Below, in pieces: positions 30,087-39,000 of a stretch of DNA of 64,000 nucleotides; the stretch's first letter is position 1, and the number at the start of each line of letters is the position of its first letter. The DNA is from Paracyclopina nana. Taxonomy: Eukaryota; Arthropoda; Copepoda; Cyclopoida; Cyclopettidae. Under the pieces are notes generated by a model. The model had not been told where the DNA came from. It saw only the letters and a program-made list of their open reading frames with translations, and searched no databases. The stretch is taken from NCBI GenBank assembly GCA_019096065.1, contig JAGUCH010000003.1, positions 4,154,001 to 4,218,000 of the forward strand, given 5' to 3'. A program made the position numbers and the translations under genes.

Positions 30087-33000
30087 TCAGAGAATGGCAC
30101 AATATTCCACACAATTGAAAGTGTCATCGTCTTTGACACTGATTGAATCCGTGGCCAGTAGTTTGACAAAATCGTCCATTTGGATCTTGCCGTCATTGTC
30201 ACTATCTAAAGTGGCAAGCATTTCGTCCAGCTCCAAATCAGCACAGCTGGATTTCATTTCCAACAAAAGGCAACGTTTCATTTGGTCAGCTGTCATCACT
30301 CCATCCGACGTATCAGCCACAATAACTCTGAAACATATATCACCATTATTCAGACTATACTATCAAAAATTAATTGCGAACATTTCACTCCAGATACAAA
30401 TATTCTTTTAGGTGCGCGCAGTTCTCTCAGTCACATTATTTCTTTTCAGTTGAGTGCCAATGGAGCCTCAGTTTTAGACTCAATTAGTCTCTGTACGTTG
30501 ATTCTCTTAGGGATCTCAGTGGTTTCTCAAATGCAAAGGAATCTTAAAGGATTCTCTTAGGAATCTCATTGGTCTCATTTTGTAATTTAATCAGTGGATC
30601 CACTGTTTAATATCAGTGGATTCTCTTATCCCAGCGAACCCTTTTTCGGAAGTGAAAGCCGGAAATAAGCCGTTTAGATTTTGTCTACTTTGACGGCTTC
30701 GAAAGCCCTTCCTTATTATTGTTGGCGTTACGCAAAAGCTAACCGGAAGCTGCGGCTTGAAAGTTATTTCCGGACAACTTTGAAAGTTGTTAAGCTACTT
30801 CCGAAAGTTGTAAGAAAGTTGTCTTTTTCAGGAAACATCTTTGGGGGCCAAACAGATTTGGAAGGCAATCCGAGGCCAAAGAATTTTGATAAAAAGCCGT
30901 TTTCAAAAGTAGTTGAAAGTTGTTCGGAGGCCAAATGGAGGATGCAGGTAGCCTGCGCCCTCGCAGCGCCCCAGCCTTTCGTCAGCGGTGTTTATTTGAA
31001 AGGCATTTGGTGACATTGTTACTTTGCATTTATTTGGCAATGTTCAATACATTTTATTAAAATACATCAAGTTGGAATGACTTTCGACTTATTATCACAC
31101 ATAAGTGTGGCCTTTATGGCCTTGACTTCAATTTTTTGGCATTGAATCACATTTCGATTGCATAACGTGGCCATAGCCTACGTTTTTAATTTCTCTACTT
31201 ATTCGGCTATTTCAGCTTGCTGCAAAACGTTAATTTGAAAAGTATCTACCGCTAGAAATTATTGTCCAAATCTCGAATTGTTATGAAAGTCATTTGAAGG
31301 CCAACTCGAGCACTAATGCTTCTTGCCAGCTGAACCGCCACCTCGCTTGCTCCAGTAATCTTGGGCACGCTTCAACTCTCGTACCTTCTCCATTTCCATA
31401 AGAAGTTTCCGGCGAACGTTCTTGATTCGCTTGGCCTTTTCCTTCTCTTCGGCAGTCATTTCGTCATCGCCAGAGCTGGGAGAATTATCCGGCTGAAAAA
31501 GGTATGGAAGGGCATGATGTTGGTGAATTTGTGAAGGCTAAGAGTTAATAGGTTCGAGGTTGAAGCAAAAGCCAACCCAATTGTGTTTCGCTAATGTGCA
31601 AAGATGCCATTTCTTTGAAGGTACAAAATTGTTTGCAGCGGAACACATATTGAATTGGCTTTCAAATATAATTTAGGCGGGCTTACTGGAGGAATGCTTT
31701 GGCCAACCGCAGAGCTTGGTCCAGGTGCTGGATCATCGTCCCCATCGTTCTCATCATCGTCCTCTTCCTCATCAGCATCATCAGTGGAAGAAGAGCTCAT
31801 GTCAGTGGCAGCGAGTTTCTTATAGGGAGAGACTCCAAACTCGTCAGCATCTTCAGAAGAGCTTTCGGCTTCACTTGGCGGCATCCTGACCTCAACCGGG
31901 TACTGCTTGATGAGCTCATCAATGCGGTCATAGTGGTCGGTGATGACCGACTTGAAAATAGTTCGCAACTAAATCGAATCGAAAGTTATTACGTTTGAAA
32001 AGAAGCAAGAGATGTGCACTTACTCCAGGAACAGCTTTGACCTCATCAAAGGTCAGCTCCCTCACATCAAGGCCTTCAACACTGGCTGCTGCAACAATGG
32101 CCTTCATGACGTCATAAGGGGTGTAAGCTTTTTGGCAGCCTTTATCGAACCGATCAAATAGCCTTTCCTCGGAAACCGTCTTGATCTTGTTGTCAACGCC
32201 TCTAGTGAAAGCCGCAACAGCCTCTGCTCGCCCTAGCAAACGCTCTTTGTAGAGGTCACGATTCTCCACGGTGACGGAGTTTGGAGTCGCATGCTAAAGT
32301 AAAGAAAGTTAATTGAATGCGAGACGAAAGTTAATTAAAGGCAAAGAAAGTACATGATTGTGGTAGTAGTAGCTTGTGTCCAAAGCTAGGAGGCGATCAA
32401 CTGCTTCTTCTGGGTCCGCCACATTATCGAAAGTCCATTCAATCATTTTGGTGCGCCAATTAGTGAACCTTGTAGTGATCACCCTCTTGATGGACTTGAA
32501 GTTTTCGACCTTCACCTCCGGACCAACCTTGGTGAGCTCACGCATGTAGGGGCCGATGTCATGGATGATCATCTTCTCCAACGATTCAGGCACATAACGC
32601 TTGTAAAATTGCACCTTGCTTGGGCTAAAATCCAAAGATGTTGCGATGCAAGATGAAAGTTGTTTACTAAGAGAAACTTACTTGTTCGGGTGCTGCCAAA
32701 TGGTGTGAGCCATCGCGGACTTAGTGAAAAGGCCATCAGTTACACCAAGAGCAATTCGGACATTGATGTTCTTGTCCTGGTTTGCGTGCAACTTCTCCTT
32801 GATGAGGTCGACAACTCTTGACTGAAAGTAGTGGGAGGCCAAAAGCACATCAAAGCCAGGTCCCATCCAGTGGCTAGGAAGAAAGCGTCCAAGGATGCCC
32901 AGAGCTCGCGACTTTCGCTCAGCAGCTTGATCTTTAGAGCCAGCAATGGCAGTTCTGATCCGAGCTTGCTCGATGCTGAAACTTGTGATGGAGTCCAGGA

Positions 33001-36000
33001 TCGTCTCTCCAGTCTTAAGGATTTTCTGTAACAGAATGGAGTTGGAACAACTTTTGATTACAAATTGTTAAAAGTTTACCGAAGTTTGACCCTTTCTGGC
33101 TTGATTTTCCTTAATGCTCTTGCATTCAGCAATCACCGTGGCCTTGATGTCTTCTTTGGCCGCATTGACAATGGGGGGCAGCATATCAGCCAAGGCAGCC
33201 CTCACAGCGGTAGCCACAGCCTCTTTGAAGGCCAATGAAGTGGCTTGCGCGGTGACAAAGTTGTCGGTCATTTTGCGGAACTTTTCATCCAGCTGCTCCT
33301 CAGTTATTACCACGCCGTTGGAGTAGAATGGCATTCCTCCCTAAAATTGCAAATGCAACGTAGACGAAAGTTGTTCCAAGTCATTAAGAAAGTTACCTCA
33401 AAATCTCCTTGGTTGACATCCAAAAGCAAGTCTTGGACCTCTCCGCCAAGCAAACCTGCCAATGGTTCCTCGGGATCAGGCCCACCAGGTTGAGGCACAA
33501 CAGGCCTAACAGCTTCCTCAGAAGGTGCAGCAGTTGCAGCAGAAGTCTTCTGCTTCTTCTTGGGCGTGAGCTCAGCAATAATTGTCAAGCTTGAGCCTGA
33601 ATCGGAATCCGAGTCATGCCTTCTTTTGGAAGAGCCTGCCTTTGGCTCCTTCTTCTTGGCTGCTGCTTCAGCCTTCTTGGCTGCAGCTTCAGCCTTTTTG
33701 GCAGCCTTTTCGGCGCTTTTGGCAGCCTTCTCCTGGGCCTTCTTGTGGGCCGCAGAAGCTCTCTCTGCGCTTCGAATCGCATCTCGAAGTGCTTTTCGAG
33801 TAATTCGAGCCTCCTGTTCTTCAGGCGTAAGGCATTTGGCTGGTGAGTCGAACGCCTCCTTTGATGGCGTCTTAAAAATGGCCGGAGACTTGGCAGGTGT
33901 CTTGGCTGGCGACTTCGTGAAGAGTGGGTTGTCCACAAGATGGCCACTTTTTCGTGGCTGGAATGGCTGAAAAGAGAAAAATTGAACAACATCCAATTGC
34001 AAACGAAAGAGCTTTTTTACCTTAGTTCGGATGGCTCCAGGACTTGGCCCTCCCTCTGAAGCAGAGCTCGACAATGGCACCTTTGCCCCACGCTTCTTTG
34101 ACTGAGTCAAAGTTGACTCCATGGACTCGTCCTCGTCAGAATCCTCTGTGCCAGTTGTTTGTGGCATTTGTGTGGGAGCAGAGCCTCGGGTGGCCGTTTT
34201 TCCCCAAAGTTGGACCAGAATGTTGCCAGTGATAGGGTCCCGTTCGTTGTAAGTGTAGCGACTCATCATTTTCTCCGGAAAATTTTGGATGAGTTGCATC
34301 TTCATTGAGCCTCGTTGAGCAAACGAGAGGCCTTTCATTCGACCATTGATGTCGTTGAGGAGGTTGTCGATCCTCGAGCGCATGAGGCCTGAAAGACGAC
34401 AAACTTGAATTAGAATCGGAACAACTTTTGAACAAATTTCAAACAACTTTCATATACATACCTTCTTCTAGGCGGCAAAAAATTGAGAGGCCTTTCCGAG
34501 GTTCTCCTTCGTCCATTAGGCAGTTCACCGTTTTGACCCGTTTATTCATGGTCAGCTTCGTAGTTGGGTCGAAACCAAAAGCGTCGGCAATGGATTGCTC
34601 ATCAGCAAACTCAAAGTCGGCGGGCAAATCCATGGCCGGCTTGTCCAGCGTGAGCCCGATGACGATGACTCGGTCATACCTGGTGGTAGGCTCATCAGGT
34701 GGAGTGCACGTCTCCTCAAACTTCTTTTTTGGCGTTGGCGCCATCCTCGTTGCTGGCTTTTGGCAGCTTCTTTTGATTTGGATGCGATCAAATTTTGAAC
34801 GTCTTTACGCTTGTAATGTTGTCTAGCGACTGGGCAGAATGGCTGGCGTGGCTTGGGGACGCGGAAAGATTCCGCCAAAGGGCTGGTGTGGCAGACAAGG
34901 CTGCCTGGGTGGCGGGCAGCTCGGAATATTTTTTTCCGTGAAATCACAAAACCTTAACAACTTTCGAGCGCAATCGGACAACTTTCAAGAAAGTTGTTTC
35001 AGATTCATGGAGAAATTAGCAATTTTCAACAAAATTTGTCGTGATCTGGCCTTTTTTAAGGTTGAAATGGATGCAAGTAATTCAGATTTAGCTATTTCTT
35101 ATGATTTCGAGGCATTTATAGCTAAAAAAGCATAATTATACGCAATTTTTCAACTGCTACTGTCAGTGTCAGCTGACGCACTGCATGGCTGCAGCTGTTG
35201 TTTGGCTCAGTTGGCCCAAGCAACGGCACCTCGAAAAGAAGCGTCGCCTAAAAATGCCCAAACTTAACCCATTTGGAAAGCTCTAGAACAAAGCCAGGCA
35301 AGCCAGATACCGGCAAAAGCGAAAAGAGGCCGTACGAAAGTTGCGAGACATGCAGATTCAATGCGAAGCGCGAGTGCGACTGCTACAAAAGTCAATGAAC
35401 TATGACGACAGTTTGTAAGCTGAAATTAGATTTGACGCTTTTCTTTTTCTAATACGCACACTTATTTCAGGCGCGATGAAGACTTTTTCGGGCAGCACTT
35501 GAATGTTTGTCCATTTGACCAAGCTGATTCAAGCACTATGGATCCAGTTCTGAACACTCTACGATCTGCCGGTGGAAATGGTGATGATGCGGATGAAGAG
35601 GATAACGACGAGTTCCATGATGCGTTAGAAAATCCTAACGAACGTGTTTTGGAAGTTGATTCAATGGCTAAAAGCGCAAAAGTCATTCGCCTCAACTTAA
35701 AACGACGATTGGAAGAAACAACTCCACATCTGGGTCCAAATGACTCGACACCAGACATCAGTGATGTGGATGAGCCTGGCGAAGGGACTTCAAGCCAAGT
35801 TTGGCCAACCTCTAAAAGGAATCACCTAGAAGTTAATCGAAATGCAGTTGAACATGCATCTGACAGTGATTTGGATGGAGAGGATCAGTTTGAAGATGTC
35901 TTTGAGGATGATGATGATGAAGAGGCTGTCAACTTTATCCGACAGTGCTTGCCTGATGATGTAGAAAGTGTCAGCTCACATGAGTCGGAAATATTTGCTG

Positions 36001-39000
36001 ATCAGGATCCTGTCTATGTTGATCCTGGGGAAATGGATCAAGTTGATCCTGGAGACCTGGATTTCGAGGCCAACTTGAATTTGGCAGGTAGCAATGAGGA
36101 CGAAGATGCCACTAACACAGTGAACTTCCAACGTGTAAGTAGTTTGGAATCAGTTTGAAATTTGTTTTGAGTTACAGCTCTTTTCCTTATTCATGTCACA
36201 GATGCCAGATGCCGATGCCGTTGGTGAAACACTTTCTGAAGACACAGATGAAGAGGAAGATATTTTCTACGATGCTGAAGAGGAAGCTGGCCAAGAGCCA
36301 ATGGAAGCCGATCCCAGAGAAGACAATGCGGTTCTCTGCCATGGTACAACTTTAAGAGATTTCAAGGAGGCATTGGCAAAGGAGAATGAGTTGGATTCGC
36401 AACGAAAAAGAAATCATGCTCTGTACGCACGATTTTTCTACTTGTGCTCAATTTTGGCTGTCACCGATAGGGCAGCAAAGGCGTTTTGGAACTTTGCTCG
36501 GTCTCTAACTGACAGGAAACTGTGTGCCTTTAAAACGATGAAGAAAAATTTTGAAAAACTCGTTCCGCCAATCAAAATGACATACGAATTTTATGACACA
36601 CTTGAAAAGAAGACTTTGCACTTTAGAGGCTCCACATTTCCACGGAAAAAGTTCCCAAGGCCTCGGTACCTGCTGATGTCAGAGTGGTCTCAAGTGAACC
36701 TGAAAGAGCTGATCAAATTCTTCAAGAGTGTGCATCCAGTTGACTTCGTATGCAAATTCAAAGGCAAAATGTATATTGATTTGTTCCTGGATGGAGTCCC
36801 ATTGGCTAAGTCATCTGATGCCCTCATGTCTGTGCTTTGTGGTCGGTTTGCACCATGCCGAATGGTATGGCCAATAGCTGTACACATCTATCGAAAAGGG
36901 AACTGTACAAGCATACTTGATTTGTGCAGCAATTTTCTAAAAGAGTGCGTGGAAGCCAATGTGATTGTAAGGCGATTCATTGGCGACAGCCCCATGAGGG
37001 CAAAGTTGAAGATGCTAAAAGGCCATAGCGGTTACTGCAGCTGTGAATTTTGCTATTGTGTAGGCAAATACCATAAAAAAGCTAAGAAGATGTCGTTCCC
37101 TCTGGACACAAGTAACTACAAAAGGCGTACGGATGCGGAATGGCGCCAGATTGCAGCTAAGATTTTAGCCAATCCTCATCTACCAGAGAAAGAAAGATTT
37201 GGTCTGACAGGTGTCTCGCCACTTTTGCAGCTCGACTACTTTGATATGGTCCGCCATTTTGTACCAGATCCGATGCACAATGTTTCGCTAGGTGTTGGCC
37301 GGCAAATGATCAAGTTACTGATGAAGACCAAGAAGGGTGAAGTCACTAATCCAGAGGGAAAAGCCATAGCAAGGAAATTCGATGCCAAATGGATTCACCA
37401 GGATCTTCCTGATGAATTTGCAAGACGCCCACGTAGTTTGAAAGCCAATCTGGTTCATCTTAAAGCCTCAGAGTTTCTCGCCATCATTTGCTGTGGTTTT
37501 ACGCACATGTATGATGCTTTATCGCTGAGCAGCCAACAATCATTGCGACGAACCTGGCTTTACTTTGCTTGGATCGTTCATGCTGCGCTTCTGCCTGACC
37601 AAATATTTAAGAAGATCATTCCTGACGACAACTTTGCTTTTCGACTCCAAAAAGAGTTTTACCGGCTTTTCCAGCAAAACTTCAAGAAAAGTGAATGTAG
37701 CTTTAATTTGCACACATTTAGCCATCTGCTAGAAATTCGAAAATTGGGCTACCTCAGTGATTTCAGTGCGATGCCATTCGAGAGCTTTTTTAGCTACCTT
37801 AAGAAGATTATAAAGCCGTATACCCTAAGCTTTGCAAAGCAAGTCCTTTTGAAGTCATTTATCTCCAACATGGGCGATCATCGCTGCAGCTACAGAGTCC
37901 GAATGCAATCCAAAGCCAAAAAGCGTGCAATTAACAATTTAGTTGTCACAGAAGATGGTCTCTTTTATTATGTGCACAGCTTCACCAAAACTCATTTCAA
38001 ATGCTCTCAGGTGATCACCAAGCCTTTTGTAACTCCAGAAGCCCCGGAACTTGATTGGAGCCAAGTTCTAGTCAAGCAAGTTGACTACCTTGATAATGAG
38101 CTCGTAGACATCCCAAGAGAAAAAATGCTTTGTAAGGCAATTGTGGCCAATGATGTGCTCATTTCGGTGCCGAACGACGTGTATTTCACCTAAGAAATAA
38201 AATTATGAACAAGTTAACAGGAAGCAATGAGGAAATATTCCACTAATAAATAGATTGAGCCATATCAAAATGCAAAGTGGGGTAGTGGTGTCTTTCAAAG
38301 CTGTTTCGAAGCTTATAGGATTAGAAAACAAAATAATTTATAATTATGGTTCAAAATAAAAACGAAACTTGTTTTGCATTCGCAAATTGAAGTTTTGTAA
38401 AAAAAAATTATCCATGACCTCGAACAAATTTTCATGAACAACTTTGAAAGTACTTTGAAAGTTGTCAAATGTCTGTTTTCAAAAGTCACTTTCATGAAAG
38501 TCACTTCGAACAAATTTCAAAGTTACTTTTGACAACTTTCAAATAACAACTTTCAAAAAAGCCAAAAAGATGTTACTGAAAGTGACTTTCACCCGTAGCC
38601 ATTTCCGAAAAAGGGTTCGCTGGGTAGTAATCTAATTGGATTCTCTAAGGAATCTCAATGGATTCTCTTAGGAATCTCGGTGGATTCTCTAAGTAATCTC
38701 AGTGGATTCTCTTAGGAATCTCGGTGGATTCTCTAAGTAATCTCAGTGGATTCTCTTAGGAATCTCAGTTGAGTCACAGGCTTGTCTCAGTGGAGCCTCA
38801 GAAAGGTCTGAATAGAGTCTCAGTTAGATCTTAAAAGAGTTTCAATATGGTCTCAGTATAGTCTCAACAAGGCCTCAGTAGAGCCTCAGTAAGGTCACAG
38901 TAGAGCCTCACAAGTCTCAGCAAAGTCTCTATAGTGTCTGAGCAGAGCATCAGTAGAATAGTTATTAGTTGTCTTAGTAGAAGTAGAGTCACAGTTGATT

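Follow-up and report, generated by a model that had tools for sequence, protein, structure and literature searches.

Is a two-gene segment with inverted ends a mobile unit, and what does its second gene contribute? This question is raised by a locus in the copepod Paracyclopina nana. The stretch analysed here (the window; 64,000 nucleotides of contig JAGUCH010000003.1) contains an element of 7,995 bp (30630-38624), in which two divergent genes, a transposase gene and a second gene (gene 2), lie between inverted ends. Our analysis indicated that the element is almost certainly a member of a large mobile two-gene family, and that gene 2 very probably acts in transposition or its control. With moderate confidence, we favour the complete account in which the element is a two-component cut-and-paste transposon of the CMCT kind and gene 2 is its subterminal-binding helper.

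Copies of the element and their ends

We searched the genome (91.95 Mb, 10 contigs) for the first 12 bases of the element, CCCAGCGAACCC. They occurred at 63 places (32 forward and 31 reverse), against 2 (1 + 1) for the reversed-pattern control. Fifty-eight of these places made 29 pairs and five were single. The pairs were either long (22 of 29; 7.9-8.8 kb, plus one of 16.5 kb holding a nested copy) or short (7 of 29; 1.3-1.6 kb, one interrupted by a long copy). An exact 2-bp target duplication was present at 25 of the 29 pairs, compared with an expectation of 10% for mismatched pairs. Two of the remaining four had an exact 3-bp duplication, and the last two were the window element and the nested copy at C2:4510471. 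The empty site of this nested copy is preserved in a related element (L002), where AA was duplicated together with two extra bases.

Both proteins were also used as queries, and the best 67 of 237 candidates were scored for the window transposase, 66 of 234 for a deep relative of it and 70 of 335 for a deep gene 2. Relatives of the transposase were found at no fewer than 68 places with the window protein and at least 67 with the deep relative. Gene 2 relatives were found at at least 87 places with a one-exon query, and a deeper query gave at least 101 matches, partly the same. After merging, the lists held at least 92 transposase loci and at least 115 gene-2 loci. Gene 2 was located upstream on the opposite strand, within 6.5 kb, at 89 of the 92 listed transposase loci, which range down to 31% identity to the window transposase; the three loci without it were C2:5702946, C2:6167119 and C4:1991502. 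An orientation count on partial data gave no gene-2 neighbour on the same strand and four convergent ones, all in tandem and nested arrays. Between the window and a copy whose transposase is 32% identical, gene 2 was matched over 307 residues of its C-terminal part (E = 3e-30), and the N-terminal part alone gave E = 0.11.

A sequence-only reading of this DNA had expected that a mobile family would appear as many copies with the same ends, carrying both genes or deleted for them, and our search with the ends and both proteins found copies of both kinds. It had also asked whether gene 2 would be absent from other copies. That was so in the six short pairs examined (of seven), which showed no coding match to either protein and therefore lack the transposase too; elsewhere gene 2 accompanied the transposase at the 89 loci given above.

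The family extends beyond the window's own ends. Reading the boundaries between near-identical copies at different sites gave further subfamily ends, namely CCCCACTAAGTGTT (transposase 44-47% identical), CCCCACGAACCC (56%) and CCCCACTTCTGC (32%). The CCCCACTAAGTGTT ends were found at 113 places with at most one mismatch, against 8 for the control. In this second subfamily (ends CCCCACTAAGTG), the 2-bp duplication was exact in all 10 pairs read (cross-pair value, 7%). Across subfamilies the termini were CCC or CCCC. These termini do not exclude membership of the group, because the published terminus rule is said to hold "in most cases". Recent movement is shown by pairs of copies at different sites in which the last 3.85 kb or the last 519 bases before the element end do not differ at all (100% identity). 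The nearest relatives found for the window element were two copies, 99.6% identical to each other and 65% identical to the window in DNA; from these values its own subfamily looks older.

Several arrangements were observed among the copies. Three copies of about 8.3 kb lie head to tail at C2:2563415-2587234 (L027, L028, L029, L040, L041, L053); they are 99.5-99.8% identical in the transposase-side parts compared, with few bases between the ends (GTGGGG TTAATAT CCCCAC). This is a tandem array of a cut-and-paste transposon. At C8:4369012-4385476 (L010, L015, L062, L078, L080), an element is nested in a same-ended copy and both are flanked by CT/CT. Many short pairs of about 1.34 kb have CCCCACTAAGTG ends, for example C1:2872742-2874096, and are probably a non-autonomous family; the one pair whose ends were read had an exact AG duplication. 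Repeats of the TTAGG/CCTAA type, partly degenerate, were present at four of the seven contig ends read; one of the seven had another simple repeat and two had none. Repeats of the TTAGG type point to an arthropod.

The limits of the window element are as follows.

30627..30629, TAT flanking the left end, half of the likely 3-nt target duplication (TAT/TAG)
30630..30654, plus strand, left terminal inverted repeat, starting CCCAGCGAACCCTTTTTCGGAA
38600..38624, minus strand, right terminal inverted repeat
38625..38627, TAG flanking the right end, second half of this likely duplication

The terminal inverted repeats (30630-30654 and 38600-38624) are 96% complementary over 25 nt and perfect over the first 22 bases, so that the 22-bp perfect inverted ends read from the sequence were confirmed by the end alignment. 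Of the limits first given for the element, 30627 and 38627, each lies 3 bases outside the true end; the element itself stands. The insertion site is an 11/22/44-bp minisatellite of the TCTCAGTGGATTC type, at window positions 38629-38957 and about 30490-30629. When exactly 3 bases are deleted the 22-bp phase returns (16 of 22 positions match, compared with 5-8 of 22 for seven other lengths). Judged from these sequences, the duplication at the window copy is likely to be either 3 bp in which one base has changed or TA with an additional T. The sequence-only reading had suggested a likely TA duplication; a duplication was retained, and a plain 2-bp TA was rejected since a 3-nt gain fits the minisatellite phase. 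Neither window positions 30627-30629 nor the nested copy at C2:4510471 shows a clean 2-bp duplication. Both copies may have one or two extra T beside the left end, and these are perhaps remnants of end processing.

The transposase and gene 2

The two genes and the region between them are arranged as follows.

34462..34744, minus strand, gene 2 exon 1, start codon at 34744
34021..34388, minus strand, gene 2 exon 2, acceptor taken at 34388 (34403 is likewise in frame)
33397..33966, minus strand, gene 2 exon 3, encoding the basic linker and its S/T-P-x-K repeats
33080..33340, minus strand, gene 2 exon 4
32682..33025, minus strand, gene 2 exon 5, with 8 invariant columns (17 copies aligned)
32354..32624, minus strand, gene 2 exon 6
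32024..32293, minus strand, gene 2 exon 7
31687..31968, minus strand, gene 2 exon 8, acidic
31313..31492, minus strand, gene 2 exon 9, basic tail and stop
34745..35252, intergenic region with the divergent genes on either side, presumed to hold their promoters
35253..35417 (approximate), plus strand, presumed transposase exon 1, in which codon 11 is TAG in the window copy; open in two related copies
35472..36133 (approximate ends), plus strand, presumed transposase exon 2, acidic
36202..38193, plus strand, transposase main exon of 1,992 bp, stop included, in which D, D, C(2)C, H(3)H and E are invariant

When 22 transposase copies were aligned, D262, C281-x-x-C284, H504-x3-H508 and E527 were invariant, and the same D/C-x-x-C/H-x3-H/E pattern was found in the copy whose transposase is 32% identical to the window's. 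The D and E of this pattern are presumably the catalytic residues. The arrangement of D, C(2)C, H(3)H and E is the CMCT pattern (PMC12730594). At C2:4516222-4518213 (L008), the transposase has a stop codon where the window copy has its presumed catalytic glutamate. Open frames at the corresponding places in two related copies make the two upstream exons of the transposase gene likely. Searches of family and PDB-sequence libraries with transposase members gave only weak matches, which were taken as chance: Tricorn_C1 (8 of 22 members, best E = 0.0023), UcrQ (0.0049) and phrog_6998 (0.0071). Relatives were sought in viral contigs (44 pattern matches) and prokaryote genomes (25), where none was confirmed, and in phages, where none was found.

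Gene 2 runs on the minus strand from 34744 to 31313 and has nine exons and 942 codons in the adopted model. Its length depends on the choice of acceptor (947 codons in the first-pass model), and at the edge of exons 3 and 4 two related copies use an acceptor other than the window's, which accounts for the frame break in their gene-2 reading frames when the alignment is cut at that edge. The N-terminal and C-terminal parts of the protein are both conserved; a basic S/T-P-x-K linker lies between them, and an acidic stretch and then a basic tail follow. No convincing match to gene 2 was found in Pfam, NCBIfam, PHROGs or PDB sequences, where the query was the deep copy L064 only for PHROGs, and L064 plus window exon 3 for NCBIfam. 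Weak matches were again taken as chance. They were TolA for the Lys/Ala-rich exon 3 (E = 0.0031, failing the cut-off) and, for deep gene-2 copies, RelB_like_antitoxin (0.025), PH_35 (0.032), Vip3A_N (0.091) and the DNA-binding domain of Tn916 integrase (0.52).

These results agree in most respects with what had been read from the letters. The 1,992-bp transposase exon was found at 36202-38193 including the stop, the two genes are divergently transcribed (gene 2 on the minus strand, transposase on the plus), and the profile search that had been proposed for gene 2 was consistent with a protein of no recognisable domain. Its nine exons were retained, and the length of about 932 codons became 942. 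The description "near-intact" is fair, apart from the premature TAG in the presumed first transposase exon.

We compared the divergence of the two genes over 21 of 24 transposases (three had no extracted gene-2 row). Amino-acid-changing distances of gene 2 and transposase were highly correlated (Mantel r = 0.94 for the 21 elements; none of 2000 permutations gave such a value). Most clades were common to the two gene trees, for example the pairing of the window copy with C2_4516 and a group of eight members that is identical in both. The trees disagreed in places, such as C2_2577, and in the gene-2 tree only 5 of 17 internal branches were well supported. Purifying selection acted on both genes in the few measurable pairs. 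The ratio of nonsynonymous to synonymous rates (dN/dS) was 0.03 for the transposase and about 0.01 for gene 2 (exon 5, with its synonymous sites near saturation) in C4_3472 versus C4_3997 and C1_6730 versus C4_3997; the values were 0.13 and 0.02 in C2_12182 versus C9_2350.

The role of gene 2

The two regions next to the terminal repeats are non-coding and contain repeats.

30655..31312, left side, subterminal and non-coding; 331 bases hold 5 repeats of the AAAGTTG type (mean after shuffling, 0.22)
38194..38599, right side, subterminal and non-coding; 331 bases hold 4 repeats of the AAAGTTG type, direct and inverted (mean after shuffling, 0.22)

In 35 ends the AAAGTTG-type motif was present 57 times, against 7.3 after shuffling (standard deviation 2.4, maximum 12 in 50 shuffles). 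Outside the window element it occurred 32 times in 56,005 bases. Two gene-less elements retain 160-180 bp on the left and 120-150 bp on the right that are similar to the window's subfamily, and one of them also retains a 109-bp piece of the intergenic region. A third retains about 110 bp at one end. Because some gene-less elements keep their end regions, sequence beyond the 22 terminal bases is probably needed in cis.

On this basis we propose the following mechanism. For the transposase we would expect cleavage at the CCC ends and joining at a 2-bp stagger, as the duplications suggest. The gene 2 protein would bind DNA in the nucleus as a helper: it would recognise the subterminal repeats of the AAAGTTG type, bring the two ends together and place the DDE transposase on the CCC termini. 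The division of labour would be that of TnpA with TnpD in plant En/Spm, where TnpA binds the subterminal repeats. The chances that gene 2 specifically binds the subterminal regions seem to us evenly balanced. More tentatively, and with somewhat less than an even chance, gene 2 may found a new protein family. Its members would be indispensable to an animal CMCT-clade transposase, would have been recruited independently and would have stayed in two-gene form down to 31% transposase identity; their co-evolution with lineage-specific subterminal repeats would set which ends each transposase moves.

A number of results weigh against the helper account. The AAAGTTG motif was picked after the window's repeats had been viewed and related ends are not independent; it is missing from 12 of the 35 ends, and 8 copies lie in coding exons of the window element. 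Three of the six gene-less elements have the terminal repeat alone in common with the two elements compared. No recognised DNA-binding domain was found for gene 2 in the libraries searched. Selection on gene 2 was measured on one exon of 105-118 codons, transposase synonymous sites were unsaturated in only 4 of 210 pairs, and the closest pair, C4_3472 and C1_6730 (dS = 0.005), gave a transposase dN/dS of 0.26 (gene 2, 0) from very few changes. Transposase_21 (PF02992) was not matched by the 22 transposase copies at E up to 1, nor by the deeper copy at E up to 10 (HMMER); a PF02992 search of the genome gave no match, and none for its 14 controls either. Single-sequence structure prediction of the transposase exon gave a mean predicted local distance difference test (pLDDT) score of 36. 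Among the matches listed, 26 of the 115 gene-2 loci had no transposase. These are not evidence of solitary genes, because the lists give lower bounds and at least one such locus, C1:6444053, lies inside the full-length end pair C1:6438553-6446456.

The strongest alternative, which we nevertheless consider unlikely, makes gene 2 a regulator or anti-silencing factor encoded by the element. It might work, for example, at the promoters of the element or against small-RNA or chromatin silencing by the host; it would be conserved because it lets the element survive in the host, and would be dispensable for cutting and joining. The conservation of gene 2 and its co-divergence with the transposase would suit such a protein, as would the basic low-complexity S/T-P-x-K linker and the acidic stretches, which are appropriate to a chromatin or promoter protein. 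AAAGTTG copies also occur in the gene 2 introns (5) and between the genes (3) of the window element. However, two of the six gene-less elements retain subterminal regions of the window's subfamily, which a factor acting at the ends fits at least as well, and no known regulator was convincingly matched in Pfam.

It is less probable still, and in our opinion doubtful, that gene 2 and plant En/Spm TnpA are homologous but very diverged, the pair being an ancient CACTA inheritance and not an independent pairing. The number of proteins and the subterminal repeats are as in plant elements (PMC8978399), and the ends of a related subfamily, CCCCACTAAGTG, contain CACTA. However, no family model convincingly matched gene 2, and the En/Spm proteins are spliced from one transcription unit (PMC1636069) whereas two divergent genes are present here.

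The capture of a host gene once, as a passenger, had been named at the outset as a possibility, and no known mobile-element domain was recognised in gene 2; this is very improbable, since gene 2 is divergent at 89 of the 92 listed transposase loci with identities down to 31%, and its divergence parallels that of the transposase. That the ends and genes came together through assembly or by chance is hardly credible: nothing was found in its favour, and against it stand the 63 places of the end sequence (2 for the control), the 25 of 29 end pairs with an exact 2-bp duplication (10% expected) and the nested insertion with its surviving empty site.

Plant En/Spm requires a partner protein; whether the same holds for animal elements of the CACTA type was not answered in the literature searched. 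The helper account can be tested in this genome: the 92 or more transposase loci, the copies identical to their ends and the gene-less same-ended derivatives form a ready system for examining the need for a partner, and the natural diversity of copies is enough to solve the partner's fold and DNA sites.

Relation to known transposons

Animal TRC elements of the CACTA superfamily were reported in 2006, with CCC-starting ends and 2-bp duplications, and include SmTRC1 of Schistosoma and elements of Tribolium and Aedes aegypti (PMC1636069). The Aedes aegypti element has ends CCCAGTCAAC and a length of 9.2 kb, and SmTRC1 has 2-bp direct repeats at the ends of 7 of 14 copies (PMC1636069). The window element resembles them in its CCC ends, 2-bp family duplication and animal host. 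It differs in its two divergent genes: SmTRC1 is about 4.7 kb and encodes alternatively spliced proteins, with two tandem frames in one clone, and the accessible part of the TRC description contains no separate divergent second gene (PMC1636069). SmTRC1 also matches Transposase_21, whereas the window-family transposase does not (HMMER). On its sequence we would call the element TRC-like and not file it as a TRC member, because Transposase_21 is unmatched despite the TRC-type ends and duplication.

Hydra Spongebob_HMa / EnSpm-4N1_HM has ends CCCAGCCAACATTGAC (CCCAGCCAAC), in which 9 of the first 10 bases are as in the window element (PMC4298943). This element likewise has a 2-bp duplication and was placed in TRC. 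It differs in its 5.8-kb consensus, for which the exact transposase was not found and, in the accessible text, no second gene is described (PMC4298943). The sequence-only reading had taken the CCCAGCG ends as the mark of a distinct lineage. As CCC ends and 2-bp duplications were already published for TRC (PMC1636069) and Spongebob_HMa (PMC4298943), ends of this kind are not new.

Subterminal repeats are also found in plant CACTA elements, together with two reading frames, of which one encodes a protein of unknown function (PMC8978399). En/Spm elements usually have 1-2 reading frames, with 4-5 in a red alga (PMC6431247); CACTA elements also occur in Daphnia (PMC2884549), and in Capsaspora with 3-base duplications (PMC4007536). 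Plant En/Spm is like the present family in its two proteins, subterminal repeats, length (8.3 kb for Spm/En) and short target duplication, and differs in its CACTA-starting ends, 3-bp duplication and single transcription unit (PMC1636069, PMC8978399). The plant-type 3-bp duplication contrasts with mostly 2 bp here, although the window copy itself gained 3 nt. The CCCCACTAAGTGTT ends (L031-L034; subfamily CCCCACTAAGTG) have the plant-type CACTA three bases in, and may link animal CCC ends to plant CACTA ends. The counterpart of the plant subterminal arrays would be the AAAGTTG-type repeats (57 in 35 ends).

Transib/ProtoRAG has a CMCT-clade transposase, with RAG1- and RAG2-like proteins encoded by separate genes. 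It differs in its ends and target duplication, and gene 2 shows no kelch repeat match. In PIF/Harbinger, the partner protein has a Myb-like domain. A partner of the Harbinger or ProtoRAG kind was rejected, as gene 2 has neither a Myb nor a kelch match in Pfam. PIF/Harbinger movement needs a second element-encoded protein besides the transposase (PMC2836001), which is its likeness to the present element; its transposase belongs to another superfamily.

For animal TRC/EnSpm elements, the literature searched (Repbase, supplements and most subscription papers lay outside it) gave no account of a second gene that is conserved and divergently placed, and the conserved partner gene may be new. Of the earlier proposal of a new two-component animal lineage, the mobile two-gene family with an unmatched partner survives and the novelty of its ends does not. 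The window element is best placed as a two-component transposon of the CMCT kind, close to animal TRC/EnSpm in its ends and target duplication.

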